Part shown: positions 31,139 through 56,146 of the stretch, piece after piece
Layout of the letters: each line of letters begins with the position of its first letter
Numbering within the stretch: position 1 is the first letter of the stretch
NCBI RefSeq assembly: GCF_002252565.1
Contig: NZ_NPML01000019.1
Span: 124,001 to 188,000 of the forward strand
DNA from: Petroclostridium xylanilyticum
Lineage (GTDB): Bacteria > Bacillota > Clostridia > SK-Y3
Direction: 5' to 3'
Length of the DNA stretch: 64,000 nucleotides
The notes under the pieces: model-generated
Seen by the model: the letters and a program-made list of their open reading frames with translations, nothing else
Databases searched by the model: none
Told to the model about the DNA's origin: nothing
Made by a program: the position numbers and the translations under genes

Positions 31139-32286
31139 GCTCTCCCTCCTTCCATAGCTTGTTCCAGGTCTTTTAGCAAATCATCAGCATTTTCTATACC
31201 CACAGATAATCTTAACAAATCGTCGGTCACACCAATACGGTTTCTCACTTCTTCTGGGATATCCCCGTGGGTTTGCTTGGCAGGATATGTTATTAAGCTT
31301 TCCACCCCGCCGAGACTTTCTGCAAAAGATATAATCCTAACCCTGTTGATAATTCGTTCGATAAATTCTTTACGCTTTACTTTAAACGAGATCATCGCCC
31401 CATATCCTTTGGCCTGTTCGCTTATAATATTATGACCCGGGTGTCCTGGCAAACCAGGATAATAGACCTCTTTAACCTCTGGTCTCTCTTTGAGCCATTT
31501 TGCTATTTTAAAAGCATTATCCTGCTGCCGGTCCATTCGGACAGCTAATGTTTTAATGCCTCTAATCATTAGCCAACTGTCCTGAGGTCCTAAAACTCCT
31601 CCTGTAGAGTTTTGAATAAATTTAATTTTTTCACATAATTCTTGAGTAGCTCCTACGACAATACCTCCTAAAACATCATTATGGCCGCCTAGATACTTAG
31701 TAGCACTATGCACAACAATATCTGCACCTAACTTAATAGGCTGCTGTAGATAGGGAGTCATGAAGGTGTTGTCTACAATGGTTAATATCCCTCTGCTTTT
31801 TGCTACCGAAGCAACCTCCCGGATGTTGGTGATTTTCATTAATGGATTGGTAGGACTTTCAATAAATATAGCTTTTGTAACTTCCGGCTGGATGGCTGCT
31901 ATCACTTCTTCGACGTTAGACGTATCCACATAGCTGGCTGTAATTCCATATCTACAGAATATTTTGTCTAAAACCCTATAAGTTCCACCATATAAATCAT
32001 CAGATACAATTAAATGATCCCCTTTAGAAAAAATCATTAATACTGCTGTAACAGCGGCCATACCAGAAGCAAAAGCATAGCCTCCACACCCTCCTTCCAA
32101 CTCCGCTGCCAAATCCTCCAATACCTTCCGGGTTGGATTAGATGTTCGGCTGTAATCATATCCGGTTGATACACCCAGAGCTATATGCCGAAAGGTTGCA
32201 CTGTGATAGATTGGAACACTAATGGAGCCTTTCTCAGAATCTGCACCAATACCTGCCTGGGCAACAATCGTTTCAATGTTCATCAT
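31135..32286 (-). CDS. Trans-sulfuration PLP enzyme (cystathionine synthase/lyase family), copy 1
   Basis: The 383-aa PLP enzyme has YDYSRTSNPTRKVLE near the N-terminus, the cofactor lysine in VVHSATKYLGGHNDV, and VESLITYPAKQTHGDIP near the end. It is the first gene after the S-box leader, so SAM levels control it. Family members interconvert cysteine, homocysteine and cystathionine. The ATG follows AAGGAGAATGCA. Confidence 0.88.
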   Translation of the reverse strand: MMNIETIVAQAGIGADSEKGSISVPIYHSATFRHIALGVSTGYDYSRTSNPTRKVLEDLAAELEGGCGGYAFASGMAAVTAVLMIFSKGDHLIVSDDLYGGTYRVLDKIFCRYGITASYVDTSNVEEVIAAIQPEVTKAIFIESPTNPLMKITNIREVASVAKSRGILTIVDNTFMTPYLQQPIKLGADIVVHSATKYLGGHNDVLGGIVVGATQELCEKIKFIQNSTGGVLGPQDSWLMIRGIKTLAVRMDRQQDNAFKIAKWLKERPEVKEVYYPGLPGHPGHNIISEQAKGYGAMISFKVKRKEFIERIINRVRIISFAESLGGVESLITYPAKQTHGDIPEEVRNRIGVTDDLLRLSVGIENADDLLKDLEQAMEGGRA

Positions 32287-32679: not shown

Positions 32680-34998
32680 TTATATTTTATTTTGCAAACT
32701 CACTAAAATATAAGCAATTCCTCCTGCTATCAATGCACCGTTAAAGCCAAATTCCATAGATAATATAATGGACAGCACAGAACCAACTACCGACATTACC
32801 CCGTTAATACCCCACATAACCGGAATGATATCGCTTCTTCCGCTTTCACTTAACAGTTTAAGTCCTCTCGGGAAAGGCATGCCCATAAAGAATCCCTGGA
32901 TCATCACGATGATGGATGAAATAAGAATTCTATTGACCAGGCTCCAGTCGGAAGTATTTTTAAATACACCTCCCAATATACCAATTAATATCATATTGAT
33001 TATAACAATTAATACAGGAGGCATATATACATTTTTAATAGTTCTATTAAACAACTTACTGCTGCTCATAAAGGCACCCAACCCGCAGCCTATCAGCAAT
33101 GCTGCAAGTACATAGGTAAATGCCAGCACGGGATGACCGAGGTACAGTATAAATTTCTGTATGAGAGGAATTTCTATCAGCATGAACCCGGCACCCAGGC
33201 CGCTAAAATACAACGCAGGCCTTGAAGCGCCATGTTGGGCAACATAAGGAATAAATAAAACCATACCCCCTACTATCACAGCAGAAAGTATAAAGAGTAA
33301 TATAGGCGAAATTCCTTTGGTAAAGTTATAAAAATACGGGCTGTCGTCTGTTGCAGGCGTTACGTTATAACTAAAACCTGTCAGGTATTCTGCCATGGAA
33401 ATATGCTCTTCTTTTATATGACCAAGAGGACCCTGCTCATAGATGTGGGGTGTAAACAAAGGGATATTTCCATTTTCCACTGCTTTCTGTGCCAGTTCTT
33501 TACTCTGCTCTTGTGTAAAAGGCGTATTTTTGATAATCACCATGGGATTGTGAATGTGCTCCCCGCCATGCTGGCTCTGGGGCATATTTTTCTTAAAGAT
33601 TGCCATATATTTAGGTGCATCTTTAACCGGTATACCCTTATTCTTTAATGCTAGTATGGCAGTTGCTACTATTTTCCCCAGGTCTTCCTGGTCATGGGTT
33701 AAAAACGCTAGTTTACCGTCCTCTTTAAGATGGTCAAGGTAGTCCTGCATTGCCTCAACAGTATATATATAGTTTTCAGAAAGCGCATAGCCGGCACCCT
33801 GAGAAGTACTGGTCATTACCAGCGATAGAAATATGACATCGTACTTATCTTTTGTCTTTCTTATATAGTTCCGTCCATCCTCACCGTATACCCGTACTTC
33901 AGGTCTGTCGTAAATATTCCCGTTATAATCTTTAAAATGTCTTACTGCGTCTATGCTGGAAGTATTAATTTCGACAGCGGTGATATCCTTACTTCCACCG
34001 GCAAGTGCATATAGTACGTCTCTTCCTCCTCCAGGCCCGATAATTAGCGTACTGTCATTTTTTCCAAACGAAAAAGGCATATATTCGGTATCTTTCTTAT
34101 ACTTATTAAGGCTTTCAGTATTTCCATCAAATCTGTACATAGGCGCATTCGCAGCACCATCGATTGTTACCAGCATCTGGTCAGGGTCTTCCTCAACCTT
34201 TATAACGTCAGTTCTTGAAAAGGCATTCCATTTGGTATAGACAATCTTACCTTTTTCTCCCGCTTTTTCAATTTTTCCCAGTGTTTTTGTAACATTTGTT
34301 GTGAACCCATTGAAATTCTGCTCAATGAAATTCACATATTGACCCGGTATTAAAAGACCTGCTAAAAATATCACGGGTAAAATATAGTTAACTGCACTTT
34401 TTCTTTTTAAAAAGATTGCGAACAGTAATGCTGCTAAAGAAGCAATTACACAAATCAGAATAACTGATCTATACATCCCCAGATAATTTAGTGATAGCAG
34501 TACAATGATGCTTCCCAATCCTGATCCCAGCAGGTCAGCAAAATACAGTCTATTACTTATTCCGGAAAGTTCTCTGAAAAGTACAGAAAAATAATATCCA
34601 CCCAATATAAAAGGTATAGTCCCTAATACGGCATACACCAATAAACCGTTAATATAAGGTAGAATATAGACTATTCCCAGTACCGATATATAGGAGATTG
34701 AAAGTACTACCAATGCTTTATATAAGGATTGAATAGGAGGTACATCAGCATCCGGTACTGCTTTTCTTTTTGGTTCGGCTTTATTTGCCCTTCTTTTTTC
34801 CTGCTGCCTATAAGCAATAATACCTCCTATACCCAATCCAAATACTGCAAAGGAAGTAATTAAAAATACGTAATGATACCAGAGGATAGCAGAATATATT
34901 CTGGTTAATACAACCTGGTATACAAATAATGATATTGAAACAAAAAACACACTTAAAAGAACTAAAATTTTATCCCCGGAGTTTCTTACCTTTAACAA
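32680..34998 (-). CDS. Membrane protein with spermidine-synthase-like methyltransferase-fold domain
   Basis: The 772-aa protein has about six N-terminal helices, a central soluble domain and about seven C-terminal helices. The central domain carries STLIIGPGGGRDVLYALAGG and AVEINTSSIDAVRHF, the SAM-type nucleotide loop of polyamine aminopropyltransferases. Such fusions are widespread but their substrate is unknown; a polyamine or other alkyl transfer at the membrane is possible. It is transcribed from repeat-type promoter a at 35180-35220. Confidence 0.75.
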   Translation of the reverse strand: MLKVRNSGDKILVLLSVFFVSISLFVYQVVLTRIYSAILWYHYVFLITSFAVFGLGIGGIIAYRQQEKRRANKAEPKRKAVPDADVPPIQSLYKALVVLSISYISVLGIVYILPYINGLLVYAVLGTIPFILGGYYFSVLFRELSGISNRLYFADLLGSGLGSIIVLLSLNYLGMYRSVILICVIASLAALLFAIFLKRKSAVNYILPVIFLAGLLIPGQYVNFIEQNFNGFTTNVTKTLGKIEKAGEKGKIVYTKWNAFSRTDVIKVEEDPDQMLVTIDGAANAPMYRFDGNTESLNKYKKDTEYMPFSFGKNDSTLIIGPGGGRDVLYALAGGSKDITAVEINTSSIDAVRHFKDYNGNIYDRPEVRVYGEDGRNYIRKTKDKYDVIFLSLVMTSTSQGAGYALSENYIYTVEAMQDYLDHLKEDGKLAFLTHDQEDLGKIVATAILALKNKGIPVKDAPKYMAIFKKNMPQSQHGGEHIHNPMVIIKNTPFTQEQSKELAQKAVENGNIPLFTPHIYEQGPLGHIKEEHISMAEYLTGFSYNVTPATDDSPYFYNFTKGISPILLFILSAVIVGGMVLFIPYVAQHGASRPALYFSGLGAGFMLIEIPLIQKFILYLGHPVLAFTYVLAALLIGCGLGAFMSSSKLFNRTIKNVYMPPVLIVIINMILIGILGGVFKNTSDWSLVNRILISSIIVMIQGFFMGMPFPRGLKLLSESGRSDIIPVMWGINGVMSVVGSVLSIILSMEFGFNGALIAGGIAYILVSLQNKI

Positions 34999-35179: not shown

Positions 35180-35220
35180 ATTATAGCAAGCGCTTGTGAA
35201 GAAAATATGAAGAAGTGAAG
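35180..35220 (-). promoter_or_regulatory. Repeat-type activator promoter a
   Basis: On the minus strand two CTTCAYAA-like boxes 11 bp apart, with a third irregular CTTCA further up, precede TATAAT (complement of 35180-35185). The last box starts exactly 16 nt before the -10 hexamer. This is the same geometry as at five other promoters. No -35 hexamer is present. Confidence 0.6.
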
Positions 35221-35444: not shown

Positions 35445-36500
35445 CTATTCAATAACCCGCCGCGCCCCATAGTATCTCGGAGCATAGTAGTAGGGATCAT
35501 CAATTCTTCCTATTGAAACTGTCTTACCGGTACGCGGAGAGTGTACAAACTTTCCATCCCCAATATAAATGACTCCATGGGAAGGTCCGGGCGCATAACC
35601 CTCGAAGAATACCAGATCACCGGGAAGAAGCTCTTCTTTCGAAATTGGCCTTCCTACTTTATACATATCAAAAGAAACACGTGGCAACTGGATTCCGTTT
35701 TCCTTAAAGGTATACCATATTATACCCGAAGAATCAAATCCAGAAGGGTTGGCTCCGCCCCACCGGTATGGAACTCCTAAATATTTCATTGCGGTTTGTA
35801 CAATAAGCTGCCGCTTATCCTTTTCTTTTGAAGCCGTTTCTATAACTTCTTTAGCTCTAGGTTTTACCGGTTCTTTTAGAATTACCCTTTCATTTTTATC
35901 TATAACCCTCATAATTACTGCTAAGGCCTCAGCCCGTGTTAAATTTTTATCCCCCTTAAATTCACCGTCAGAATATCCGGCGAGCAATCCCTTTCCATAG
36001 GCTTTAAGTACATACTCCTGGTAATTAGGGTGAATATTATCAAAGTCATTGATGTAAAGTTTATAATTATTTAGATTTTCCGGATAAGTTTCATCTAGAG
36101 CATTTATAATCACTTTTGCCACTTCTGCACGGTTAATGGGCTTATCTAAATCAGCATCATTAAATTCATTTTTCTCTAAAATTCCTAAAGATTCGGCTTT
36201 TCTGATATAGTCCATAGCCCAGTGCCCGTTTTCCGTTGTTTCTTGTTTATAGTCCAAACTCCTTAAAAGCAGAGTCACAAATTCTGCCTTTGTTATTGTT
36301 TTATTGGGTTTAAATGTACCATCAGCATATCCACTGATATTCCCCGAGTCAACTAATTTTGATATGTAAGCCGCCGACCAGTCCGATTGTGAAATATCCG
36401 AAAAATATGAAGTAGTTTTAGCAGATGCCGGTACACCTGTTACACTTGTTAATAAAAATAAGCTAACTAAGAAAATATTTATTATTATCCTTTTTCTCAT
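35445..36500 (-). CDS. SLH-domain protein with NlpC/P60-like domain lacking the catalytic Cys
   Basis: The 351-aa secreted protein has a signal peptide, three SLH repeats (about 30-200) that bind secondary wall polymer, a short linker and a C-terminal NlpC/P60 fold (about 228-351). The usual catalytic FDCSG is FDSSG here: the codon for residue 257 is TCT (Ser). The catalytic His (His308) is kept. It may therefore be an inactive wall-binding protein or an unusual Ser variant. It lies downstream of repeat-type promoter b. Confidence 0.88.
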   Translation of the reverse strand: MRKRIIINIFLVSLFLLTSVTGVPASAKTTSYFSDISQSDWSAAYISKLVDSGNISGYADGTFKPNKTITKAEFVTLLLRSLDYKQETTENGHWAMDYIRKAESLGILEKNEFNDADLDKPINRAEVAKVIINALDETYPENLNNYKLYINDFDNIHPNYQEYVLKAYGKGLLAGYSDGEFKGDKNLTRAEALAVIMRVIDKNERVILKEPVKPRAKEVIETASKEKDKRQLIVQTAMKYLGVPYRWGGANPSGFDSSGIIWYTFKENGIQLPRVSFDMYKVGRPISKEELLPGDLVFFEGYAPGPSHGVIYIGDGKFVHSPRTGKTVSIGRIDDPYYYAPRYYGARRVIE

Positions 36501-36753: not shown

Positions 36754-36802
36754 ATTATATTAAAAAAATATGAAGAAATTATGAAGAAAATATGTAGAAG
36801 TG
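36754..36802 (-). promoter_or_regulatory. Repeat-type activator promoter b
   Basis: Three 11-bp units (ATGAAGAAATT, ATGAAGAAAAT, ATGTAGAAGTG on the plus strand, 36770-36802) lie upstream of TATAAT (complement of 36754-36759). The last CTTCAT box begins 16 nt before the -10. Confidence 0.65.
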
Positions 36803-36843: not shown

Positions 36844-37565
36844 CTACTGTTTTTCAGTAATTCTAAATTTATTTGATAATTCAAAAAGTTCTACGGATAT
36901 ATTATTTAATTGTTCCACCGTCTTGCTTAATTCTGTGGACGAATTTGTCTGGCCCTCAAGCCCTGAAGCAATTGCCAGAATACCCTCATTAATCGATGCA
37001 TTTGAATCACTGATATTCTGCATTGTCACCGTAAGTTCTTGCGTCAATGCCCCTTGATGTTCTATATCAGCCGCAATATTTTGAATTCTCTTATTGATAC
37101 TGTCAATACCATTGACAATGCCATTTAATTGTATAAAAACTTTTTCCATAGTGGAATTAGCTGTGTTAATATTCTCTCCGGATTCTATTGTCTTATTAAT
37201 TACATATTGTATATTATTTAAAATATCATCTATGATGCCTTCAACTACTTTAGCTGAATTATCATTATTTTCTGCCAACTTTCTAATTTCTTCTGCTACT
37301 ACTGCAAACCCTACCCCCTGCTTCTCCTGCTCTTGCTGATTCTATTGCAGCATTAAGCGCTAATAAGTTTGTTTGGCAATATTTTTAATCGTATTAATAA
37401 TATTGCCTATTTCCTGTGCTTTTTCCCCAAGTTCTCTTGCTAAGCCGGAAGTCTCCTCTGATGACTGTTTAATAATATTCATTTTTTGATTCGCTTCTGC
37501 TGCAATATTCCCGCTATCCTTTGCAACATTATTAATATTTTTTACTATTCTGGAAATTTCTTGTT
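36844..37565 (-). pseudogene. Broken methyl-accepting chemotaxis protein, signalling domain
   Basis: The open part at 36844-37278 encodes the last 145 residues of a chemoreceptor signalling domain. Upstream, other frames give EISRIVKNINNVAKDSGNIA, NLLALNAAIESARAGEAG and GFAVVAEEIRKLAENND, the family hallmark, but with a loss of bases after AKQ and an extra G after GEAG. The receptor and membrane portions are absent beyond about 37565. At least two frameshifts and a truncation make it a pseudogene. Confidence 0.85.
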
Positions 37566-37637: not shown

Positions 37638-39845
37638 CTAATCCACTTCCGTATGCCTGAATTCAACATTTACCGGCGTACCGGGAACAACCACTGTTCC
37701 TGCAGGCGGATCCTGACTAACTGATAACGCAGCATTTACTTCCCCGCTACGGCCAGTTACCGTCCCCGAACCAACTATCCTAAGATTCAAGCTTGCATCA
37801 TTTAATATTTTATTAGCATCTAAAACCGATTTTTTTAATACATCCGGAACTACTACACTAGCTGTTGGTTTAGAATCTTCAGTATATAATATAATTGTAG
37901 ACTTTTCCGGAAGTTTTGTTCCCGGTTTGGGTGTTTGATCGGTAACGGTATTACCGGAACCTTCAACTTTATAGGCTAAGTTTATCTCTTTAATCTTCTG
38001 CTGTGCTTGCTCTACATCTAAATTTCTTACTTCCGGGATAGTAACATCCATCATTAATAATTCTTCCTTGGTGAATCTAGGCTCTACTCCCAGGTAATTT
38101 AATGTATCATCAAGAATCTTACCTGCAACAGGTGCAGCAACAACACCACCGAAGTAATCGTCCCCTTTAGGTTCATCCAATATTACAAGCACAACGGCTT
38201 TAGGAGCATCCGCAGGAGCGAAACCGACAAATGAAGCAATATAATTCTTTTGCCCTCTCGGGAGTTTCTCGGATGTTCCCGTCTTTCCCGCCACTCTATA
38301 CCCCTTTATGTATGCATTTTTCCCTGTCCCTTCAGAAACTACACTCTCAAGAATTTCTCTAAGGACAGCAGAAGTTTCTTTTGATATGACCTGCCGGACG
38401 ACTTCCGGGTCAAAATTTTTGATAACATTTCCTTCTTTATCAGTTAGCTGTTTTACCAACCTTGGTTTTAACAAATAACCATCGTTTACAACTGCAGATA
38501 TAGCACTAATCATTTGAAGCGGGGTAACCTGAAAACCCTGTCCAAAGGACGCTGTCGCCAGCTCCAGTTGATTAAATGCTGCAGGTTTATGGAATAGTCC
38601 GGCCATTTCTCCATCAAAATCAATGCCCGTCCTTTCTAAAAATCCGAAGGCTTTCACATAACGGTAGAACACTTCCGGCCCTATTTTGCCTGCTACTTCA
38701 ATAAATGCAGGATTGCAGGAATTTTGAACTGCTTGCACAAAAGTTTGTATTCCATGTGGCCTGTAATACCTCCAGCAGTTAATCCTTTGCCCTGCCACCA
38801 CAGCATAGCCTATGCAATTAAATAGGTCATCAAGTTGCACAGCATTTTCTTCCAGCGCAGCTGCTGCTGTTATAATCTTAAAAGTTGATCCCGGTTCATA
38901 GCTGTCAACTATGGCCTTATTCCGCCACATCTTTTGAAGTTCAACCCTGTACCGGTCTGTAAAATCTTTTCCACTTAGCTTTTCTAATTCCTTTTTCCTT
39001 TTTTCATCCTGTATCTCTAAAGGATTATTTAGATCAAAGTCAGGCTTAACTGCCATGGCAAGTATATCTCCCGTCTGGGGGTCCATTACAATGGCAACTC
39101 CTCCATTTGCCACTTTATTCTCCATCAATGCCGTTTCCAAATGTCTTTCAGCAAAATGTTGAATCGTTTCATCAATTGTTAATACTACATTAGCCCCATC
39201 TTCCGGATCTACATATCTTTCGTATTGATATGGCATTTCTGTCCCCGCTGCATCTGCTGCCGATATAACCCTTCCGGGTAAACCTTTTAAATACTTATCA
39301 TACTTTGCTTCTATCCCAAATAACCCTTGATTGTCAACACCCACAGCTCCCAGTATATGAGCTGCAAAATTGCCGTAGGGATAATATCGTTTTGAATCTT
39401 CTTCCAGATAGATACCTTTCAACCTATATTGTCTAATCTCATCAGCTTGATTTTTATCAATCTTTCTTTTAATAATCTCATAATCACTTTCTTTAGTAAT
39501 TTTCTTATATACATCTTCATAAGTCATATTTAAAATTTGTGATAACTTTCCAGCTATTTCCCCGGCATTGCCGGCCTTTTTTATTTCATTCGGTGCAACA
39601 CTAACTGTTTCTACCGAAGCACTTACTGCAAGAGGCTTACCGTTACGGTCAAAGATGGAACCTCTCCTGGAGTTAATCATGCTGTCACGAACCTGCTGTT
39701 TTATAGCTTCTTTTTGAAGTTTTTCACCATCATATACTTGTAACCAACTTATTCGTACAATTAACCCAGTTAGTGACAAAGTAAAGAAAACAAGTAAAAA
39801 GAAGATTCTTTTTTTTATTGCCATGCTTGGCCTAATCAACAACAT
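37638..39845 (-). CDS. Class B penicillin-binding protein with PASTA domains (SpoVD/PBP2 type)
   Basis: This peptidoglycan transpeptidase has an N-terminal membrane helix (about 12-33), a dimerisation domain (RRGSIFDRNGK at 60-70), a transpeptidase domain with Ser320 in STFK, S376-C-N and K521-TG, and two C-terminal PASTA repeats (about 600-735). The 735-aa length and PASTA tail match SpoVD, needed for spore cortex synthesis, or a division PBP. No cell-division cluster is adjacent. It follows a Met/Gly-rich secreted protein gene. Confidence 0.92.
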   Translation of the reverse strand: MLLIRPSMAIKKRIFFLLVFFTLSLTGLIVRISWLQVYDGEKLQKEAIKQQVRDSMINSRRGSIFDRNGKPLAVSASVETVSVAPNEIKKAGNAGEIAGKLSQILNMTYEDVYKKITKESDYEIIKRKIDKNQADEIRQYRLKGIYLEEDSKRYYPYGNFAAHILGAVGVDNQGLFGIEAKYDKYLKGLPGRVISAADAAGTEMPYQYERYVDPEDGANVVLTIDETIQHFAERHLETALMENKVANGGVAIVMDPQTGDILAMAVKPDFDLNNPLEIQDEKRKKELEKLSGKDFTDRYRVELQKMWRNKAIVDSYEPGSTFKIITAAAALEENAVQLDDLFNCIGYAVVAGQRINCWRYYRPHGIQTFVQAVQNSCNPAFIEVAGKIGPEVFYRYVKAFGFLERTGIDFDGEMAGLFHKPAAFNQLELATASFGQGFQVTPLQMISAISAVVNDGYLLKPRLVKQLTDKEGNVIKNFDPEVVRQVISKETSAVLREILESVVSEGTGKNAYIKGYRVAGKTGTSEKLPRGQKNYIASFVGFAPADAPKAVVLVILDEPKGDDYFGGVVAAPVAGKILDDTLNYLGVEPRFTKEELLMMDVTIPEVRNLDVEQAQQKIKEINLAYKVEGSGNTVTDQTPKPGTKLPEKSTIILYTEDSKPTASVVVPDVLKKSVLDANKILNDASLNLRIVGSGTVTGRSGEVNAALSVSQDPPAGTVVVPGTPVNVEFRHTEVD

Positions 39846-39913: not shown

Positions 39914-40288
39914 TTATAGCTCATTATCAAAGTAGCTGCCCATCATGCCGCCGTAGCCACCCATCATACCTCTATTGAATTGTGATCGGTAACTCTGATT
40001 TGCTGGACCATTGCCAGGTCCGCCAACTCCTCCACATTGTCCGCCAAATCCGTTCTCTTCATGGAATTTCTGCATGTAATCAAAATGCTCATTCCATTGT
40101 TTGGCTTCATCTTCTGTAATGTCACCCTTTTCCACTGCTTTGTCTACCCATTTCCTATGAAAATCGAACATAGAATTAAAGAAGTCTGATGCTTTGGAAT
40201 CTTTTTCATCCGCAGCAAGCGCTACCGGTACAGCGATCGCTGTAATGAGCAATAATGTTGTGATAAGTACTGTAATTTTTTTCTTCAT
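39914..40288 (-). CDS. Secreted DUF2680-like protein with Met/Gly-rich tail
   Basis: The 124-aa protein has a clear signal peptide (MKKKITVLITTLLLITAIAV, cleavage near ALAAD). A helical middle (VDKAVEKGDITEDEAKQWNEH) resembles DUF2680 modules. The tail is Gly/Met-rich (RGMMGGYGGMMGSYF). Similar MMGG strings occur in the sensor kinase at 40392, the small protein at 46753 and the protein at 48872, all in this region, and suit Cu(I) binding. It is driven by promoter c. Confidence 0.75.
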   Translation of the reverse strand: MKKKITVLITTLLLITAIAVPVALAADEKDSKASDFFNSMFDFHRKWVDKAVEKGDITEDEAKQWNEHFDYMQKFHEENGFGGQCGGVGGPGNGPANQSYRSQFNRGMMGGYGGMMGSYFDNEL

Positions 40289-40344: not shown

Positions 40345-40404
40345 ATTATAATAGGCAATTATGAAGAACTAATGGAGAGATTATGAAAAACTTATGAAGA
40401 TTTA
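40345..40404 (-). promoter_or_regulatory. Repeat-type activator promoter c
   Basis: Four 11-bp units fill 40361-40404 on the plus strand (ATGAAGAACTA, ATGGAGAGATT, ATGAAAAACTT, ATGAAGATTTA). TATAAT is the complement of 40345-40350, 16 nt from the start of the nearest CTTCAT. The array overlaps the end of the sensor kinase gene. Confidence 0.7.
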
Positions 40405-41759
40405 TTAAAACTTATAATTACTTTAGTGCCTTTATTTACCTCACTCTCTACTTTTATTGTGCCCTTATGGGCTTCCACCAGCGCTTTGGTAATGGTAAGC
40501 CCTATACCGGAGCCCCCTGTTTCCCGGCTCCGTGAAACATCTCCCCTGTAAAATCTTTCAAAGATATGGACCAGGTCCTCTTTCTCAATACCTATGCCGG
40601 TATCTTCAATGATAATACTAACTTTACCTTTGTACTCATTTAATGTAGTTGTAATCTGTCCCTTCTCATTTGTATATTTATAGGCATTGGATAAAACATT
40701 GATAAAAATCTGGTTTAGCCGGTCAGCGTCGCCCATTATCTCTACATCCTGCTGTATATCTTTTACAATCTTTATATCCTTGCTTATGAACAGCGGCTCA
40801 AAATTATCTACTACGTTATCTAATAAGGATGATAAATTGACCTTATCCATATTTAACCTGACTTCTTCGCTCTCAATTTTAGATAAGTCTGAAAGATCTT
40901 TTATAAGCTTTGTGAGCCTGGTAATTTCATCATGAATGCTCATCAACCGTTCCTGGGTAGGCTGCCATATGCCGTCCATAAAAGCTTCTATATGACTCTG
41001 TAATGTTGCCAGAGGAGTTCTCAGTTCGTGGGAAATGTCAGATGTTAATCTCTTTCTTAATGCATCCTGATATTCTAATTTTTCTGCAAGTTCTTTTATT
41101 GAAATGGATAAATCCTGCAACTCAAGGGTATTTGTCTCTATATCGTACAGCTGCTTATATTTTTCCTCCTCTATTAACTTCGCATTTTCTTTAATGAGGT
41201 ATATGGGATGCAAAAACTTTTTAGATACGTGCAAACTTAAAATAGCAGCCAGTATGATAGAAAAAATAAAAGCAGCAATATATACTCCATTAATGGTATA
41301 TACAAAGCCCCTATCCTGTGAAGTCACTATAATACTCTGTGGCCTGCCTATTTCAATAATTCCTACTTGCTGCCCCTGATAGTTCAAAGGATATTCTTTA
41401 TATACCACATTTCTGTCCTGATAACGCCTTCCTCCCATCATGCCGTGCATCATTGTGTCGGACATCCCGCTTTCCCATACGACTTCATTCTTTATATTTT
41501 TAATTTTAACTTCTATTGCTTCACTATAGGAATAGTGCAGAATATTCATTAACGAACGACTGTCAAGCCCTCCACCATCATCGGAATACAGGCGTTCTAT
41601 ATATTGCACCAATTTAAGGTCATCCTGGCTTCTAGATGCCTTAACATAGTTAGTAAAAAAATAGTTCATACTGATATTTGAAACGATGGTAATAAAGACA
41701 ACGGATATAATAGAAATTAAAATAAAATATTTTCTTAATTGTTTACTTATATTAATCAT
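40392..41759 (-). CDS. OmpR-partner sensor histidine kinase
   Basis: The 455-aa kinase has a membrane helix at about 13-33, an extracytoplasmic sensor loop to about 150, a second helix (AAFIFSIILAAILSLHV), HAMP, HisKA with SDISHELRTPLA, and a catalytic ATPase domain with NAYKYTNEKG and GIGLTITKAL. The sensor loop contains SDTMMHGMMGGRR, a Met/His-rich string that could bind copper or silver. It overlaps the response regulator gene by 4 bp. A metal-sensing role is inferred from this motif and neighbours. Confidence 0.9.
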   Translation of the reverse strand: MINISKQLRKYFILISIISVVFITIVSNISMNYFFTNYVKASRSQDDLKLVQYIERLYSDDGGGLDSRSLMNILHYSYSEAIEVKIKNIKNEVVWESGMSDTMMHGMMGGRRYQDRNVVYKEYPLNYQGQQVGIIEIGRPQSIIVTSQDRGFVYTINGVYIAAFIFSIILAAILSLHVSKKFLHPIYLIKENAKLIEEEKYKQLYDIETNTLELQDLSISIKELAEKLEYQDALRKRLTSDISHELRTPLATLQSHIEAFMDGIWQPTQERLMSIHDEITRLTKLIKDLSDLSKIESEEVRLNMDKVNLSSLLDNVVDNFEPLFISKDIKIVKDIQQDVEIMGDADRLNQIFINVLSNAYKYTNEKGQITTTLNEYKGKVSIIIEDTGIGIEKEDLVHIFERFYRGDVSRSRETGGSGIGLTITKALVEAHKGTIKVESEVNKGTKVIISFNKSS

Positions 41760-42460
41760 TGGCTATTCCCCACAAATTTATATCCGACTCCGTAAACTGT
41801 TACAATGTATTTAGGTTCTTTTATATCGTCTTCAATTTTTTGCCTGATGTTTTTAATATGGGTATCGATTGTCCGGTCATATCCTTCAAAATCGTAACCT
41901 AAAGCAACATTGATCAGCTGATTGCGCGAAAAGGTCCTTTGCGGATTTTGAGCCAAAGAGAGTAAAATATTGTATTCATTTGGCGTCAGGTTGACAACCT
42001 GTCCACTTTTTTTGACTACATGCTTAGGTATATCTATTTCTAAATCACCATTGTTAAAAGATAAAATATCCGTCACCATCATATTTCCTTTTGTCCTTCT
42101 TAAAATAGCCCTGACCCTTCCTATCAACTCCCTGGGACTAAACGGTTTAGTCAGATAATCATCAGCACCAATGTACAAACCGTGCACCTTATCCTCTTCA
42201 CCGCTTTTAGCAGTGAGCATCAATATAGGTACATCCGATTCCATTCTTATTTGCTTGCATATTTCTTCCCCTGATAAGTCAGGAAGCATCAAGTCAAGAA
42301 CAATAAAATCAGGCTTTAATTTATGAAACAGTTCGATGGCTTGTTTACCCCTCTCTGCTGTATATACATCATATCCCTCGACTATAAGGTAATCTTTTAC
42401 AACTTCCAGCAGTTTTACTTCATCATCTACCAATAAAATTTTTTCCTTCATTGCGTCCAT
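41756..42460 (-). CDS. OmpR/PhoB-family response regulator
   Basis: The 234-aa protein has a receiver domain (KILLVDDE; phosphoacceptor in FIVLDLMLPD, about Asp57; TAKSGEED) and a C-terminal winged helix (NLTPNEYNILLSLAQNPQRTFSRNQL, TIDTHIKNIRQKIE). Such regulators bind 11-bp direct repeats next to -35 regions. Six arrays of this kind lie in the window, one of them upstream of this very operon, so autoregulation is plausible. Either of two close ATG codons (42460 or 42451) could be the start. Confidence 0.92.
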   Translation of the reverse strand: MDAMKEKILLVDDEVKLLEVVKDYLIVEGYDVYTAERGKQAIELFHKLKPDFIVLDLMLPDLSGEEICKQIRMESDVPILMLTAKSGEEDKVHGLYIGADDYLTKPFSPRELIGRVRAILRRTKGNMMVTDILSFNNGDLEIDIPKHVVKKSGQVVNLTPNEYNILLSLAQNPQRTFSRNQLINVALGYDFEGYDRTIDTHIKNIRQKIEDDIKEPKYIVTVYGVGYKFVGNSQ

Positions 42461-42503: not shown

Positions 42504-42731
42504 TTATGGTAACTTTTTTACTTTTCCTTTGATTATAGCCTCATCAACAATCTCTTTAATCATCTCTCTTGATACATTCTGGTCGTTATAGGCAATCTTA
42601 ATCCTTTTTTCCTCTAAATTGACACTCAGCTCTTGAATGCCTTGTATTTGACTGAGGGCTTTTACAACATTTAGCACGCATCTATGACACAGCATATTAC
42701 TTTGTTTTAATTTAACTATGTGTGTTTTCAT
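42504..42731 (-). CDS. Heavy-metal-associated (HMA) domain protein
   Basis: The 75-aa protein has one HMA fold with a metal-site pair at Cys15 and Cys18 in NMLCHRCVLNV. The consensus MxCxxC is altered to MLCHRC. The pattern of betas and helices (IQGIQELSVNLEEKRIKIAY) matches CopZ-like chaperones. It precedes the two-component genes by about 45 bp and probably shares their promoter (d). The start is ambiguous between ATG 42731 and GTG 42746. Confidence 0.75.
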   Translation of the reverse strand: MKTHIVKLKQSNMLCHRCVLNVVKALSQIQGIQELSVNLEEKRIKIAYNDQNVSREMIKEIVDEAIIKGKVKKLP

Positions 42732-42869
42732 GATGATATTCTTCACCCTTCTATTAAAGTTAAAGTTATTTTACGTATTTGTCAATAATTTCTTCTATTT
42801 TTCATTTTCTATTTTTAAATAAAAGCCTGTTTTACACAATGTTTAGCATGCTGGTCAACTATGAATTAC

Positions 42870-43135: not shown

Positions 43136-43453
43136 AGTTTACACTTAATACTTACATTTTCTTTTTCTCTACATATTTTTTCTATAATTAACTTTCTAAT
43201 ACCCGCATTTTAAAATCTCAAACACTACTTATATCTTTTCTATATATCATAATACTACTCTATTATGAAGATCTTATAAAAAAGTTATGAAGAAACTATG
43301 AAGATTCATAGTTACACAGTCAAACGCACTCCCGTAGCGAAAAGAATTCTATTAATACAAAAACAGGAAAAACGGTATTCACATAAATCCCCTTCCTTTT
43401 CTTAGCAATTAGTAAATAAAAAACCATGCGCATTTCAGCACATGGTTTTTTAT
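43136..43453. other. Intergenic region downstream of copZ
   Basis: Apart from promoter d (43249-43308) and the terminator hairpin at 43412-43457, this stretch is AT-rich with no supported gene. Confidence 0.5.
43249..43308 (-). promoter_or_regulatory. Repeat-type activator promoter d
   Basis: Four 11-bp units at 43265-43308 (ATGAAGATCTT, ATAAAAAAGTT, ATGAAGAAACT, ATGAAGATTCA, plus strand). TATTAT is the complement of 43249-43254, 16 nt from the start of the last CTTCAT. The next intact gene downstream is the HMA/two-component operon about 500 nt away, with a methyltransferase relic and a MITE between. Confidence 0.65.
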
Positions 43454-43457
43454 TTAC
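43412..43457 (-). terminator. Terminator of copA-copZ
   Basis: Perfect 17-bp arms 43412-43428 and 43441-43457 (GTAAATAAAAAACCATG and complement) with A- and T-rich outer stems, able to act on both strands. It includes the copZ stop codon. Confidence 0.85.
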
Positions 43458-43666
43458 CCTTCTATTTTAACAACCTCATATCCAGCCTCATCTATTGCCG
43501 CCCTTAGTTTTTCATCAGCTACTTCATGGGCCAGCTCTACTGTTGCAAACTTTTGTTCCAAATTAACCGATACCGATTTTACTCCACATATTTCTTTTAA
43601 TGCTTCCTCAACATGTCCTACACAATGTGCACAACTCATTCCTTCAATAAATATTTTCTTCATCAT
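43454..43666 (-). CDS. copZ: Copper chaperone CopZ-like
   Basis: The 70-aa HMA protein has the metal-site motif GMSCAHC and typical ending AAIDEAGYEV. ATG at 43666 has AAGGAAGG 6 nt upstream; the longer open frame to 43726 lacks a ribosome site. It lies 160 bp downstream of copA on the same strand and carries Cu(I) to the ATPase. Confidence 0.9.
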   Translation of the reverse strand: MMKKIFIEGMSCAHCVGHVEEALKEICGVKSVSVNLEQKFATVELAHEVADEKLRAAIDEAGYEVVKIEG

Positions 43667-43826
43667 ATGAATCCTTCCTTTCTTTTTATTAGTTATTCGT
43701 TCGTAGTTCACAGTTGTTAATACCATATATCATACATGCAGCATAGCAAACTTATATTTTTAATATCCGAGGAAGTTGTATTAATTATTTATAATGTATG
43801 ATACTGATCAACCACGAACTATATAT

Positions 43827-46286
43827 TTAATGCAAAGGCTTAAATTGTTTTAGCCTTAAAGCATTCGTTAATACGGATATAGAACTAAATGCCATGGCTG
43901 CTGCCGCTATGATTGGATTTAACAACGGCCCGCCAAACAGGTACAGCAGTCCGGCTGCCACCGGAATACCGGCTGTGTTGTACGCAAAAGCCCAGAATAA
44001 GTTTTGCTTAATATTGCTAATGGTCTTTTTGCTTAATTGTATTGCAGTCGGTACATCCATCAAATCACTTCTCATTAATACAATATCCGCTGATTCCATT
44101 GCAACATCGGTTCCGGAACCAATCGCAATGCCTATATCCGCTTGTGCCAGGGCTGGCGCATCATTGATTCCATCGCCTACCATTGCCACCTTTTTACCTT
44201 CTGCCTGGAGCTTTTTTACTTCATTGGCCTTATCCTGCGGCAGCACTTCAGCCAATACCCTATCTATTCCTACCTGCTTTGCGATTGCCTCTGCGGTCCT
44301 TCTATTGTCGCCGGTAATCATTGCTACTTCAATGCCCATACTGTGTAATACTTCTATTGCCCTTTTACTGCTTGCTTTCATTACGTCGGCCACTGCTATG
44401 ATTCCTGCCAGTTTATTATCAATGGCGACAAACATTGGAGTTTTTCCTTCTTCAGCCAATCTATCCGATTCTTTTTGTAATGTAATTTCTATATTTCTAT
44501 CATTCATCAATTTCTTATTACCCAACAGCATTGTTTTTCCTTGAATTTTGACTTCTATTCCATGGCCGGGAATTGCTTCAAAACTTTCAACATTTAAAAA
44601 TTCTAGCTTCTTTTCTTTTGCCCTGTTGACAATCGCTTCTCCCAATGGATGTTCTGATCCTTTTTCTGCTGATGCCGATAACTGCAATAATTCGTTTTCG
44701 TCAATTTCGCCAGTTGTGAGTATATCAGTTACCTTAGGCTTACCTTCCGTAATGGTCCCGGTTTTGTCAAATACGATGGTCTGTATCTTATGGGCAGTCT
44801 CCAATGCTTCCCCACCTTTTATAAGTACGCCATGTTCAGCTCCCTTACCTGTTCCAACCATGATTGCCGTTGGTGTCGCAAGGCCTAATGCACACGGGCA
44901 TGCAATGACTAGTACGGCTATAAATATGGTAAGTGAGAAAATCACTGACATTCCCGACAAATACCAAGCCAATCCTGCTATGATGGCAATTACTATGACA
45001 ACCGGTACAAAATATCCTGATATGATATCTGCTAATTTTGCTATAGGTGCTTTAGAACCTTGAGCATCTTCCACCAGTTTGATAATTTGGGCAAGGGCAG
45101 TATCTTTACCTACCTTGGTTGCCTTAAACTTAATCGTACCGTTTTTATTAATACTTGCTCCGATTACTTTACTGCCTATATTCTTTTCTACAGGTATGCT
45201 TTCACCGGTAAGCATCGACTCGTCAACTGATGTCCTTCCTTCTATTACCTCGCCATCAACCGGAATTTTTTCCCCCGGTTTTACCAAGACGATATCCCCT
45301 ACTTCTACTTCCTCTATCGGAATAGTCATCTCTTTTCCATCATGAATTACCACTGCTGTTTTAGGTGCAAGTCCCATGAGTTTTTTAATAGCTTCCGAAG
45401 TTTTTCCTTTTGTGACAGCTTCCAGATATTTTCCTAGCAAGATTAATGCAATAATAACTCCGGCTGTTTCAAAATATAAGTCTTTAGCATATTCAAAATT
45501 TCCATTTGCAATTTGGTATACTGCATAGATTCCATATAAGAATGCTGCAGCTGTACCCATAGCAATCAATGAATCCATGTTGGGTTCACGTCGTATCAGT
45601 CTACTAAACCCTACAGTATAGAACTTATAGCCCGCTATCACTACAGGGATTGATAAGATTAGCTGTACTAACGCAAAGTTCAGCGGGTACATCTCAGGCA
45701 TAATGATCTCTGGCAGTTTTAATCCCAATAAATGCCCCATTGCGATATATAGCAGTGGTACGGTAAATATAGCTGATACTAAAAATTTTATCCACAAAGA
45801 TCTCATTTCTTTTTCTCTACGTTCTCTTTCGTGGTCTACCTGTTTGTCAGCTTCAATCTCCAATGCTTTATAGCCTGCCTTGGACACGGCATCTTTTATC
45901 TCTGAAATCCTTGTTTTGGAAGAATCATACACTACCTTTGCTTTTTCGGTTGCAAAGTTTACACTTACTTCACTTATTCCCGGCAGCTTACCTATGGACT
46001 TTTCAATTGCTTTTGCACAGGATGCACAGGTCATTCCTGATATGGGAATAGTGATCTCCCTTATAGTATCATTCTGTTCCTCCTGCGCACTGTATCCTGC
46101 TTTTTTTACTGCTTCTTTAATTTTTTCAATACTTGCTTTGCTTTCATCAAACTCGACTGCTAATTTCTCCGTCGCAAAGTTTACATTTACTAAGCGCACT
46201 CCTTCTATTTTGCCAACACTTCTTTCAATTGCCTTAGCACAAGATGCGCAGGTCATTCCTGTAATATTTAATGTTTGTTTTTGCAT
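43827..46286 (-). CDS. copA: Copper-exporting P1B-type ATPase
   Basis: CopA pumps Cu(I) (or Ag(I)) out of the cell. From ATG 46286 (AGGGGTG 8 nt upstream) it is 819 aa, with two N-terminal HMA domains (Cys13/Cys16 and Cys87/Cys90, both GMTCASC), eight predicted helices, the TGES actuator, the CPC ion site (Cys463, Cys465), phosphorylation DKTGT (Asp507), the SEHPLGEAI His-Pro site and [13 protein letters not shown] CsoR-like operator overlaps its promoter. Confidence 0.95.
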
Positions 46287-46313
46287 CTTTTTGTCACCCC
46301 TTTTGTATTCCCT

Positions 46314-46330
46314 CCCCACTATGGGTGGGG
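46314..46330 (-). promoter_or_regulatory. CsoR-like operator of copA
   Basis: On the minus strand CCCCACCCATAGTGGGG is an inverted repeat with CCCCAC/GTGGGG arms, like the GC-rich palindromes bound by the copper repressor CsoR. It sits just downstream of the -10 box. No csoR gene is in this window. Confidence 0.7.
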
Positions 46331-47159: not shown

Positions 47160-47400
47160 AACCTTGAAAATCATGTATAATATCTTCCGGACTTGGAAGG
47201 TGTGTGTATCACCTCCTGGGACGGACCTTAGCGGGCCGATTACCCGTGTGAAAGAGTATTTATCCATTCCGGTAAGTCTACATGATTTGGCTGGTTGAGG
47301 CCAGCTAATAAGCTGGTTCCTCGTGTCACATGCAAGGTTGTTTGCTTACATGGGAAGGAATGGAGGCTTTTAAGTCCATCAATCTTGTAAAGGAGGCATT
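47160..47400 (+). ncRNA. Putative bridge RNA of the IS110 element
   Basis: The left end has a promoter-like TTGGCC-18-TATAAT (about 47152-47181), followed by several complementary segments such as GGCTGGTTGAGGCCAGC and AAGCTGG. IS110 elements express a bridge RNA from this position whose two loops pair with target and donor DNA. Placement follows family knowledge; loops are not resolved here. Confidence 0.5.
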
Positions 47401-47404
47401 TTTA

Positions 47405-48871: not shown

Positions 48872-49621
48872 TTATTTTTCATCATGAGATATTATTTTTT
48901 CTAATTGGCCATGCCATGTATGGTACCATACATCTCCTGTGTAATAGTTCACACTTAACATGCCTACTGTTTTATTTCCTTTGTTAACATGAAATGTATA
49001 ATAACCATAAAATTCATGGCCTTCAGCTACTACCGAAAAATCTTTACCTTCGCTGTTTTTCACATATTTATCAGCAATTTTTATTGCATCTTCCCTGTCT
49101 ACTTTCTTTAAATTATTTTGATCGTTATAGTACCAGTTACCTCTATTCCAACTCGCTCCCCCCATCATCATACCCATCATTCCAAACCCTCTTTGACCAT
49201 GCATGCCGTACTTTTCATTCCACATCATATTCGGTCCATACTCGGGATAAATATCACCTGTATATGGATTTACAAGCAGCTCCATGGCACCTTTTCCCGT
49301 ATCTTTTTCCTCGATGGATACGTAATAGTCACTGTCTTTAAATACAAATATATCTGCTATTTCCAAATTGTCATCGTAATATTTAATATATTTATCGACA
49401 TTGTTTCTAATTTGGTTAATGGACAACCTATCTTTATTATTATCAAAAGGCTTGTTATATAAATTGAACCATCTGTTCATCATTCCTCTTCCATAATAGC
49501 CATACCCAAACGGTCCGGTCCGCCCGTATCTCATATTAGAAAAGCCCCATATACTATATCCAATAAGTAAAAGCACAGAACTAATCAGTACAAACCACCA
49601 AAAGACTCTTTCTCTTTTCAT
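48872..49621 (-). CDS. Met/Gly-rich membrane-anchored protein with PepSY-like repeats
   Basis: The 249-aa protein has one N-terminal membrane helix (VLLISSVLLLIGYSI-like) and a large outside domain. Two similar segments, NPYTGDIYPEYG and NYYTGDVWYHTW, with preceding helices resemble PepSY-type folds. A Met-rich loop (GFGMMGMMMGG) and RGMMNRW lie between and before them. Copper or silver binding is inferred. Promoter e lies 100 bp upstream. Confidence 0.7.
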   Translation of the reverse strand: MKRERVFWWFVLISSVLLLIGYSIWGFSNMRYGRTGPFGYGYYGRGMMNRWFNLYNKPFDNNKDRLSINQIRNNVDKYIKYYDDNLEIADIFVFKDSDYYVSIEEKDTGKGAMELLVNPYTGDIYPEYGPNMMWNEKYGMHGQRGFGMMGMMMGGASWNRGNWYYNDQNNLKKVDREDAIKIADKYVKNSEGKDFSVVAEGHEFYGYYTFHVNKGNKTVGMLSVNYYTGDVWYHTWHGQLEKIISHDEK

Positions 49622-49721: not shown

Positions 49722-49781
49722 ATAGTACTACTTGGTTATGAAGATATTATGAAAAAATTGTGAAGAAATTGTGGAGATTTG
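49722..49781 (-). promoter_or_regulatory. Repeat-type activator promoter e
   Basis: Four 11-bp units at 49738-49781 (ATGAAGATATT, ATGAAAAAATT, GTGAAGAAATT, GTGGAGATTTG, plus strand). TACTAT is the complement of 49722-49727, 16 nt from the start of the last CTTCAT. Confidence 0.7.
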
Positions 49782-49799: not shown

Positions 49800-51857
49800 T
49801 TATCTTGTAATTTGATTTAAAGGAAATTCTTTATCCAAAGCCTTATCAACCCCTAAATATGCAGCAAAGATGTCCCTGGCAACAGGAGCCACATTTCCCC
49901 CACTGCCGCCTCGTGCGACAATAACAGCCACCGCTATTTGCGGATTATCATAAGGTGCAAATCCTACAAACCATCCATGATCAGAACCGCCAGACGCTTG
50001 CGCCGTACCGGTTTTTCCGGCTACAGTTACGGGAAAATCTCTAAATACGGCACTTGCAGTGCCTCCTTCCTCAGTAACTGCCCTCATCCCCTCAAAAATA
50101 GTTTTTATAGTTTCAGGTTTCATCTCTATCTTACCTAAGATTTCCGGAGCAGTCTGTTTTATTATTCTCCCGTCATTGTATGTCTTTACTTTGTCTACAA
50201 TATGGACCTTGTAACGTGTACCGCCGTTAGCTATGGTGCTTACATAGCTGGCTATCTGCAGAGGTGTAAACATATGGTCAGATTGGCCTATGGCAGCCTG
50301 TATTGTATCGCCCGGAACCCATGGTTTGTTAAAAATTCTCTTACGTGGTCCCGGTCCCGCCAATATACCCTTGCTTTCACCGGCCAGTTCTATACCTGTA
50401 AGCTCACCAAGCCCAAATTTCACTCCATAATCATAAATCTTTTCTATGGTTAATCTTCTGCCTACATCATAAAAAAAGATATTACATGATACCTGAAGGG
50501 CTCCAACCATATTTAAATATCCATGAGTTGCACGTGCTTTGGTCCATAACCAACAAGCGGGCTGATAACCCTTATAAAATTTATATATACCTGTATCTAA
50601 GATCTTATCATAAGGAGTAACTATTCCTTCTTCCAGCGCAGCAATCCCTGTTAACATTTTAAAGGTAGACCCCGGTGGATAGGCACCTGCTATGGCTCTG
50701 TTAAACAAAGGTTGTAATGTATCACTGCTTAATCTTTTATAATCCTTGTAAAATTCTGACGGGTTGTAAGTTGGATAACTTGCCATTGCAAGGACTGCTC
50801 CCGTATTTACATCTAATGCTACAACTGCCCCACTGTTAGCATCACTGTATTCCTCTCCATATCCACCGTTACGTATCTTATCAATAGTATTTCTTAAAGA
50901 TGTTTCTGCGACTTTTTGTAGTTCTGCATCAATTGTTAAAATTACATCATTGCCTGGAACCGGAGCCATACTATCTAAAACTTGAGTTAATTTTCCCTGT
51001 TCGTTTATTTCTATTTCTTTTTTACTATCCTTACCTTTTAAAAATTCTTCCAGGTATTTTTCCATACCCGCTTTACCCAGTATGTCATTCATGCCGTAGC
51101 CCTTATCTTTGAGCTTACTATACTCATCTGCGTTTATTCTCCCGACATAACCCAAAACATGGGCAGCCAGTTCCTGATTGGGGTAGGTTCTAATGGGTTC
51201 TTCAAAAATACTGACCCCCGGAAATTCTCTATTTCTTTCTTCTATCTGCATCACGGTATTAATACTTACATCGGATGCCACAGTAAAGCTGCTATATGTG
51301 CCAAAGCCCTGTTCACTCATGGCATAACGGACTGAAATTACTTTTCTGGCATCCAGATCACTGTATTCAGCAGGAATTTTATAGGTATGCCTTAGTTTTC
51401 TCATAACCTCCTCGGCAGTAGCATTTGCATCAAATTTTTTAGTTTGTTTCCATTTTATCTCATTATCTTTTCTGGTAGCTTCATCATTTCCAGGGAAATC
51501 AAACTGAAATGGAGGGTATGTTATAGGCAAACTATCTATATATGTGTCATTATTAACTTCAAGAGTATTTATTAAATTTAAAATCATATCATTAAATTCG
51601 CTTATACTTATATCTACTTTTTGAATATTAATGGAATATCCTATACGGTTAGTTGCAAGGACTCTCCCAAACCTATCAAGAATTTCACCTCTAGGGGCCT
51701 TTATTTCTACCGCTCTACGTAATCTCCTCTCGGACTCTTCTGCATATGCTTTTCCATTGATAACTTGCAGCTGGATTAACCTGTATGCAAAAATAACTGC
51801 TATTATAATTATAAACACACTTAGAATGGTATAGCGATTTTTAACCTTCTCCCACAT
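49800..51857 (-). CDS. Class B penicillin-binding protein (PBP2/MrdA type)
   Basis: The 685-aa transpeptidase has an N-terminal membrane helix (ILSVFIIIIAVIFAYRLI), the PRGEILDRFGRVLATNR segment, an extended dimerisation domain, and catalytic blocks PGSTFKML (about residue 395), VSCNIFF and AGKTGTAQ (about 625). It lacks PASTA repeats, so it is of the elongation PBP2 type. RodA and MreB are not adjacent. It lies between a terminator and promoter e. Confidence 0.92.
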   Translation of the reverse strand: MWEKVKNRYTILSVFIIIIAVIFAYRLIQLQVINGKAYAEESERRLRRAVEIKAPRGEILDRFGRVLATNRIGYSINIQKVDISISEFNDMILNLINTLEVNNDTYIDSLPITYPPFQFDFPGNDEATRKDNEIKWKQTKKFDANATAEEVMRKLRHTYKIPAEYSDLDARKVISVRYAMSEQGFGTYSSFTVASDVSINTVMQIEERNREFPGVSIFEEPIRTYPNQELAAHVLGYVGRINADEYSKLKDKGYGMNDILGKAGMEKYLEEFLKGKDSKKEIEINEQGKLTQVLDSMAPVPGNDVILTIDAELQKVAETSLRNTIDKIRNGGYGEEYSDANSGAVVALDVNTGAVLAMASYPTYNPSEFYKDYKRLSSDTLQPLFNRAIAGAYPPGSTFKMLTGIAALEEGIVTPYDKILDTGIYKFYKGYQPACWLWTKARATHGYLNMVGALQVSCNIFFYDVGRRLTIEKIYDYGVKFGLGELTGIELAGESKGILAGPGPRKRIFNKPWVPGDTIQAAIGQSDHMFTPLQIASYVSTIANGGTRYKVHIVDKVKTYNDGRIIKQTAPEILGKIEMKPETIKTIFEGMRAVTEEGGTASAVFRDFPVTVAGKTGTAQASGGSDHGWFVGFAPYDNPQIAVAVIVARGGSGGNVAPVARDIFAAYLGVDKALDKEFPLNQITR

Positions 51858-56108: not shown

Positions 56109-56146
56109 ATTGTAATACTCAATTATGAAGATATTATGAAGATCAT
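56109..56146 (-). promoter_or_regulatory. Repeat-type activator promoter f
   Basis: Two clear 11-bp units (ATGAAGATATT, ATGAAGATCAT at 56125-56146, plus strand). TACAAT is the complement of 56109-56114, 16 nt from the start of the last CTTCAT. It lies 55 bp upstream of the LDCC gene. Confidence 0.7.

Follow-up and report, generated by a model that had tools for sequence, protein, structure and literature searches.

Does an NlpC/P60 domain that has lost its catalytic cysteine to serine still cut peptidoglycan, or has it become a binding module, and does its position near copper genes account for the change? These questions are raised by an SLH-NlpC/P60 protein encoded in a 64,000-nucleotide stretch of the Petroclostridium xylanilyticum genome (G000), hereafter the window (Table 1). 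Our comparison of sequences places it in a serine-type NlpC/P60 subfamily that is conserved among relatives. Its modelled fold is intact, its gene is probably co-expressed with copper and envelope genes, and at somewhat less than even confidence we take it to be a slow hydrolase acting through Ser257.

Domain architecture and the serine site

The window protein matches SLH at 111.2 bits (Pfam cut-off 20.8) and NLPC_P60 (PF00877) at 96.7 bits (cut-off 23, residues 242-347). A first-pass annotation had counted three SLH repeats; two stretches pass the Pfam cut-off separately, and the third, at residues about 152-202, is recognized by eye. This domain content suggests that the protein is exported and that its SLH repeats anchor it in the wall. 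The motif FDSSG, which replaces the DCSG of C40 cysteine peptidases, lies at residues 255-259, and the TCT codon for residue 257 reads as first annotated. His308, previously listed among the remaining core residues, is indeed present, as is His320, so that by the criteria for C40 cysteine peptidases the catalytic cysteine is absent and the two catalytic histidines are present. A nearby cysteine might have taken the place of the missing one, which would have undone the first-pass interpretation, but no such substitute can exist because the entire 351-aa protein contains no cysteine. The Ser domains of two relatives (G530 and G718) hold two other cysteines each, and the Cys sisters have cysteine at one or both of these places.

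A fold model of residues 215-351, built with 40 viral-contig homologs, reached a mean pLDDT of 94.5 and a pTM of 0.88. Its top matches among solved structures were NlpC/P60 hydrolase domains (8v3w, 7cfl, MepS, and LytE), with TM-scores by query of 0.82-0.84 for the three best, and four sequence alignments to solved relatives place a cysteine at the position of Ser257. The predicted structure thus shows an intact papain-like NlpC/P60 fold, which would present Ser257-His308-His320 where relatives present Cys-His-His.

Table 1 Features of the serine NlpC/P60 gene and its surroundings (window positions)
Feature	Position	Strand	Remarks
SLH-NlpC/P60(Ser) wall protein, 351 aa	35445..36500	-	ATG start; signal peptide by eye
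SLH region, residues about 33-201	35898..36404	-	Pfam: two repeats pass; third by eye
NlpC/P60 domain	35448..35777	-	Pfam residues 242-347; drawn to C terminus
Ser257 codon TCT, at place of catalytic Cys	35730..35732	-	read from sequence
Membrane protein, Spermine_synth domain (SpeE-like)	32680..34998	-	box-bearing; G003 ortholog 79% identical
SpoVD-type penicillin-binding protein	37638..39845	-	in G003 directly downstream of Ser-NlpC gene
Secreted Met-rich DUF2680 protein	39914..40288	-	
Sensor histidine kinase	40392..41759	-	Met-rich extracellular loop by eye
OmpR-family response regulator	41756..42460	-	presumed box binder
HMA-domain protein	42504..42746	-	
CopZ-like HMA protein	43454..43726	-	
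CopA-type heavy-metal P-type ATPase	43827..46319	-	
Secreted/membrane Met-rich protein	48872..49621	-	no Pfam family; box-bearing orthologs in G003, G001
Penicillin-binding protein 2 (MrdA type)	49800..51857	-	
DsbD_TM/CcdA-like thiol-redox gene	55148-55897		downstream of perfect two-unit box
Box	35194..35213	+	196 bp upstream of spermidine-synthase-like membrane protein gene
Direct-repeat box, 11-bp spacing, TTATGAAGA type	36768..36798	+	268 bp upstream of Ser-NlpC gene
Box	40359..40400	+	71 bp upstream of DUF2680 gene
Box	43263..43304	+	517 bp upstream of HMA gene
Box	49736..49777	+	115 bp upstream of Met-rich gene
Perfect two-unit box	56123..56142	+	226 bp upstream of DsbD_TM/CcdA-like gene

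Distribution of the serine state

Serine at this site is shared by a small set of relatives. Among 99 genomes searched with the protein, a genome of the same family but another genus (G003) encodes a full-length ortholog, 63-64% identical, with FDSSG and the codon TCA. A profile built from three Ser domains (A1) gave three matches of at least 248 bits across 391 genomes of the class (G000, G003, and G085), the next best scoring 143 bits, and 398 genomes of the phylum yielded six matches at 1e-40, with Ser in the window's own genome, G530, G718, and G483 and Cys in G607 and G698. The resulting eight-member clade has Ser in six members, Cys in two, and any other residue (Ala, Gly, Thr, or else) in none. 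No further members were found in 13 genomes of the G530 class (four matches, all known), three of the G483 class (one match, known), 22 of the G085 family (one, known), or six of the window's own family (the two known Ser proteins). A DNA-level search for the pattern G-[GA]-x-x-P-x-[GA]-[FY]-D-S-S-G, run separately with TCN and AGY serine codons, retrieved four of the 398 phylum genomes with TCN, every one of them a clade member (reversed control 0), and none of the 398 with AGY. Viral contigs lent no support to a phage origin: profile A1 gave 85 pattern stretches there and no relative, and FDSSG (TCN codons, Phe only) was found 0 times against at least 120 occurrences of FDCSG.

The search for FDSSG variants proposed in the first-pass annotation returned five other proteins with the same serine, and since the six use three codons, TCT (G000, G085), TCA (G003, G483), and TCC (G530, G718), Ser257 is not the sequencing error that annotation had named as a way to be wrong. 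We give only a minute chance to an error or a recent inactivating mutation in one strain, against which the strong purifying selection described below also speaks.

A broader set of 55 distinct NlpC domains from 104 loci comprised 49 with Cys and six with Ser, proportions that do not reflect a random sample because the loci are best matches; all six Ser domains fall in the one small clade. His308 is kept in 55 of 55 domains and His320 in 54, both being present in all six Ser proteins. Position 277 is Phe in 6/6 Ser proteins vs 0/49 Cys proteins, and this residue could either compensate for the serine or block the site. The partner module varies across the clade: it is SLH in G000 (by Pfam) and G003 (by alignment), Cu_amine_oxidN1 in G085, G698, and, at the C terminus, G483 (all by Pfam), and an N-terminal segment resembling Cu_amine_oxidN1 by eye in G530, G718, and G607.

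Conservation and exchange of cysteine and serine

Between G000 and G003, the Ser NlpC domain is 82.9% identical, with dN 0.098 and dS about 2.1 (near saturation), while the SLH part of the same proteins is 61.1% and the linker 13% identical. The domain is not decaying, since the NlpC domain of a Cys paralog from the same two genomes is only 68% identical. Sequence divergence thus indicates strong purifying selection, with the Ser domain under no looser constraint than an ordinary NlpC domain.

Two Ser proteins (G530, G718) and the two Cys proteins (G607, G698) are positional orthologs within one taxonomic family. They share a common gene order, with neighbors 50-84% identical (RuvABC, YebC, and NadE among them, by eye), and the aligned parts of the Ser and Cys proteins show 62-67% identity. 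Because orthologs of both kinds occupy the same neighborhood, this locus seems able to work with either nucleophile. With all columns, the 55-row tree groups the Ser proteins together (support 68/80; 62% of bootstraps), and when the Ser and Phe277 columns are blanked (23 of the 55 rows) the Ser state takes two changes. In topology tests on the blanked alignment of those 23 rows, a tree with all Ser proteins in a single clade is not rejected (AU p 0.42), and a tree uniting the four f163 proteins is not rejected either (p 0.198). Serine may thus have reverted to Cys, or have arisen twice.

A copper- and envelope-associated neighborhood

Within 20 kb of the Ser-NlpC gene lie a SpoVD-type PBP, PBP2, a two-component system, HMA proteins, and a CopA-type ATPase. 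In G003, most of these window neighbors have orthologs round the Ser-NlpC gene, in the order CysK, Ser-NlpC, PBP. As CopA-type genes are present in all 14 genomes searched, distance alone is informative, and it is 7, 20, and 2.4 kb in 3/3 clade members of the window's class, which span two taxonomic families; the 2.4-kb case is G085, from the other family, whose CopA is 85% identical to that of the window. CopA-type matches in G530, G718, G607, G698, and G483 lie on other contigs or 0.9 Mb away, and three genomes of the window's family (G001, G002, G004) have close CopA genes without a Ser-NlpC gene. A 1074-aa ATPase by a Cys sister (L086) was rejected as CopA, as it has Cation_ATPase_N/_C domains (Ca-type) and only a weak HMA_2 match.

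Several other features were seen in these neighborhoods. A pair of neighboring PLP-dependent gamma-synthase/lyase-like genes, with a LarE-like gene alongside (window 29999-32286, by eye), places sulfur metabolism beside the copper locus, and an IS110-like transposase (by eye) sits within the copper region at 47330-48694. A fragment at window 36844-37278 is 36% identical to a chemotaxis-type protein near CopA in G003 (872554-874242). In G085, a secreted-looking protein with two PG_binding_1 stretches is encoded between Ser-NlpC and CopA (L083, 1697-2914).

A repeat search of the window detected a 58-bp repeat in six copies, of which two overlap, and these copies resolve into 11-bp-spaced TTATGAAGA-like units; such spacing is typical of OmpR-family sites. 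At 15 or more matches out of 18, the window contains 14 box matches, many overlapping, vs 0.2 expected from 20 first-order Markov sequences, and one of the 14 (at 21676) falls inside a coding region. Box groups precede the SpeE-like, Ser-NlpC, DUF2680, Met-rich, and DsbD_TM genes by 71-268 bp and the HMA gene by 517 bp. Each box was assigned to whichever opposite-strand gene lay nearest, which means that orientation is no independent test. Across the whole G000 genome, 15 matches with at most two mismatches represent 10 distinct sites, six of which lie in 21.2 kb round the Ser-NlpC gene (binomial tail 5.6e-12, for a region picked after seeing it).

Similar boxes occur in two relatives. A G003 box lies 165 bp upstream of an apparent operon of CysK, Ser-NlpC, and PBP genes; others precede M23, PspA-type, LemA-like (by eye), DUF2680, and Met-rich genes, as well as an HMA-DsbD-cupredoxin gene near a second CopA, with four G003 box groups at least 400 bp from their assigned gene. 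G001 boxes precede SpeE-like, Met-rich, and YHS-like (by eye) genes. Near the Ser genes of G085, G530, and G718 the search found no box, and the G483 stretch has one weak match, inside the Ser gene itself. Taken together, the boxes suggest a regulon, apparent at window 35194-56142 and again in G003 and G001, that joins copper, Met-rich, thiol-redox, and envelope genes round a two-component system, whose OmpR-family response regulator is presumed to bind them. The metal-stress regulon postulated at first pass thus gains substance: the Ser-NlpC gene has an upstream box in common with copper and envelope genes, its G003 operon likewise, and CopA lies 2.4-20 kb away in all three same-class members.

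A second, partly duplicated box regulon is present in G003 (C1:1044444-1064735; His-rich, LemA-like, DUF2680-like, methyltransferase-like, and DsbD_TM genes), and no second Ser-NlpC protein is reported for that genome. Separately, the Met-rich membrane protein of the window has copies in G000 itself (C18:261203-261631), G003 (C1:852029-852784), and G001 (C43:10879-11616), with a box 81-116 bp upstream of each copy. The two copies searched match no Pfam family, and this conserved protein is possibly a new copper-binding family.

Copper as a possible reason for serine

Copper inhibits DpaA, a wall enzyme that depends on Cys, at an IC50 of about 0.1 mM, and L,D-transpeptidases are stated to be copper-inhibited as well (PMC8263019, accessible sections). 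Since a cysteine wall enzyme is sensitive in this way, avoidance of copper poisoning, as conjectured in the first-pass annotation, is by analogy a plausible reason for Ser257; the clade as a whole fits this conjecture less well. In three of the six Ser members (G530, G718, G483) the nearest CopA-type match is on another contig or 0.9 Mb away, and two of these three carry two other cysteines in the domain. The boxes of G003 also precede an envelope set (PspA-type, LemA-like by eye, and M23 genes). These observations would fit a serine swap unrelated to copper, in a gene merely near a copper locus and under a general envelope-stress system, a reading compatible with an enzyme or a pseudoenzyme and to which we assign only just short of an even chance. 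It is weakened by the proximity of CopA in 3/3 same-class members from two taxonomic families and by a box set that includes His/Met-rich, HMA-DsbD-cupredoxin, and DsbD_TM genes. The most far-reaching proposal, a naturally evolved serine-nucleophile NlpC/P60 wall endopeptidase kept as a copper-proof member of a copper/envelope-stress regulon, with orthologs at one locus using Cys or Ser, appears unlikely as a whole. If copper does drive the serine state, the family would directly exemplify the rebuilding of a wall enzyme to withstand metal stress, which is known to be a problem for L,D-transpeptidases. We found no report linking copper to NlpC and SLH in the open-licence library searched.

Slow hydrolase or binding protein

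Removing the thiol is the textbook route to an inactive enzyme with this papain-like NlpC/P60 fold, and Cys-to-Ser replacement usually cripples papain-like enzymes, such swaps being treated as dead mutants. This background argues for a non-catalytic pseudoenzyme whose SLH-anchored domain would only bind stem peptides, serving as scaffold, receptor, or shield, while Ser257 and the two His would be kept to hold the ligand; we regard this as a real possibility, although below an even chance. It has a precedent in RipD of M. tuberculosis, an NlpC/P60 protein turned binding protein (PMC12067865, accessible sections), and would suit a domain that stays while its anchoring partner switches between SLH and Cu_amine_oxidN1. 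RipD, however, lost its entire triad, whereas here the nucleophile alone has changed, and to the chemically closest residue. A binding role is also harder to reconcile with a clade divided between Ser and Cys (6 and 2 of 8, 0 other), with the retention of both histidines in all six Ser proteins, with a Ser domain more constrained than the Cys paralog domain, and with the existence of Cys and Ser positional orthologs.

We lean, tentatively, towards a slow, thiol-free hydrolase over a binding pseudoenzyme because of Cys-to-Ser precedents, the copper inhibition of Cys wall enzymes, and the wall enzymes of the neighborhood, those named in the window and in G003 being PBPs, M23, and the Ser-NlpC form. 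According to the accessible sections of PMC10318531, Cys-to-Ser bleomycin hydrolase and congopain keep residual, non-negligible activity, and natural Ser papain-like families exist (menin, APC5867, DUF2145, DUF2272, and DUF3750), which makes a hydroxyl nucleophile possible in a papain-like site. The same source proposes that a negatively charged pocket favors Ser. This argument found no support here: net charge, taken over the whole domain and not the pocket, amounts to +5 for the window protein, and values for all six Ser domains span -6 to +11, with no consistent negative shift. Counting against a link to copper, G000 also encodes a Cys-type NlpC elsewhere in its genome.

Under the preferred slow-hydrolase reading, the SLH repeats would anchor the secreted protein in the wall, the NlpC/P60 domain would still engage peptidoglycan stem peptides, and Ser257 as the nucleophile would most likely still cut them, slowly. 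Through an OmpR-type regulator that would read the 11-bp repeats, the gene is probably expressed together with genes for copper handling and the envelope. Neither Cu(I) nor thiol oxidation would poison a hydroxyl nucleophile, and, more speculatively, this may be why Ser was kept. Whichever reading holds, a natural Ser subfamily with both His, together with Cys-using positional orthologs, offers a clean pair for the question of a serine nucleophile in this fold.

Comparison with known systems

The best structure matches are NlpC/P60 endopeptidases (PF00877, peptidase family C40) that are 33-40% identical to the window protein. C. difficile Acd24020 (7cfl), B. subtilis LytE (8i2d), and E. coli MepS (7v6s) share its fold, both His, and a wall setting, and differ in having Cys where it has Ser257. 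The usual NlpC/P60 Gln is Met or Ile throughout the window clade, Cys sisters included, while Phe277, absent from the Cys NlpC/P60 proteins compared, accompanies Ser only. Outside the eight-member clade, the Cys relative that the 55-row tree places closest, an SLH-NlpC protein of G268 (L056), has the same architecture by eye and Met at the usual Gln, and differs by its Cys nucleophile.

Natural serine forms of other papain-like families resemble the window protein in having Ser for Cys with other site residues kept; these families differ from NLPC_P60, for which the accessible sections of PMC10318531 name no example, and we found no report of a natural Ser NlpC/P60 subfamily in the open-licence library searched. 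RipD, the inactive NlpC/P60 binding protein (NCBIfam NF033743), likewise lacks the Cys nucleophile, but its triad is Ala-Ser-Glu (PMC12067865, accessible sections) vs Ser-His-His in the window protein, where only Cys is replaced. Assignment to this inactive type was rejected, the window protein scoring 72.1 bits against a cut-off of 215 with a triad intact apart from Cys. The protein is therefore NlpC/P60 by profile and by fold, yet it lacks the Cys that defines C40 and is unlike RipD.
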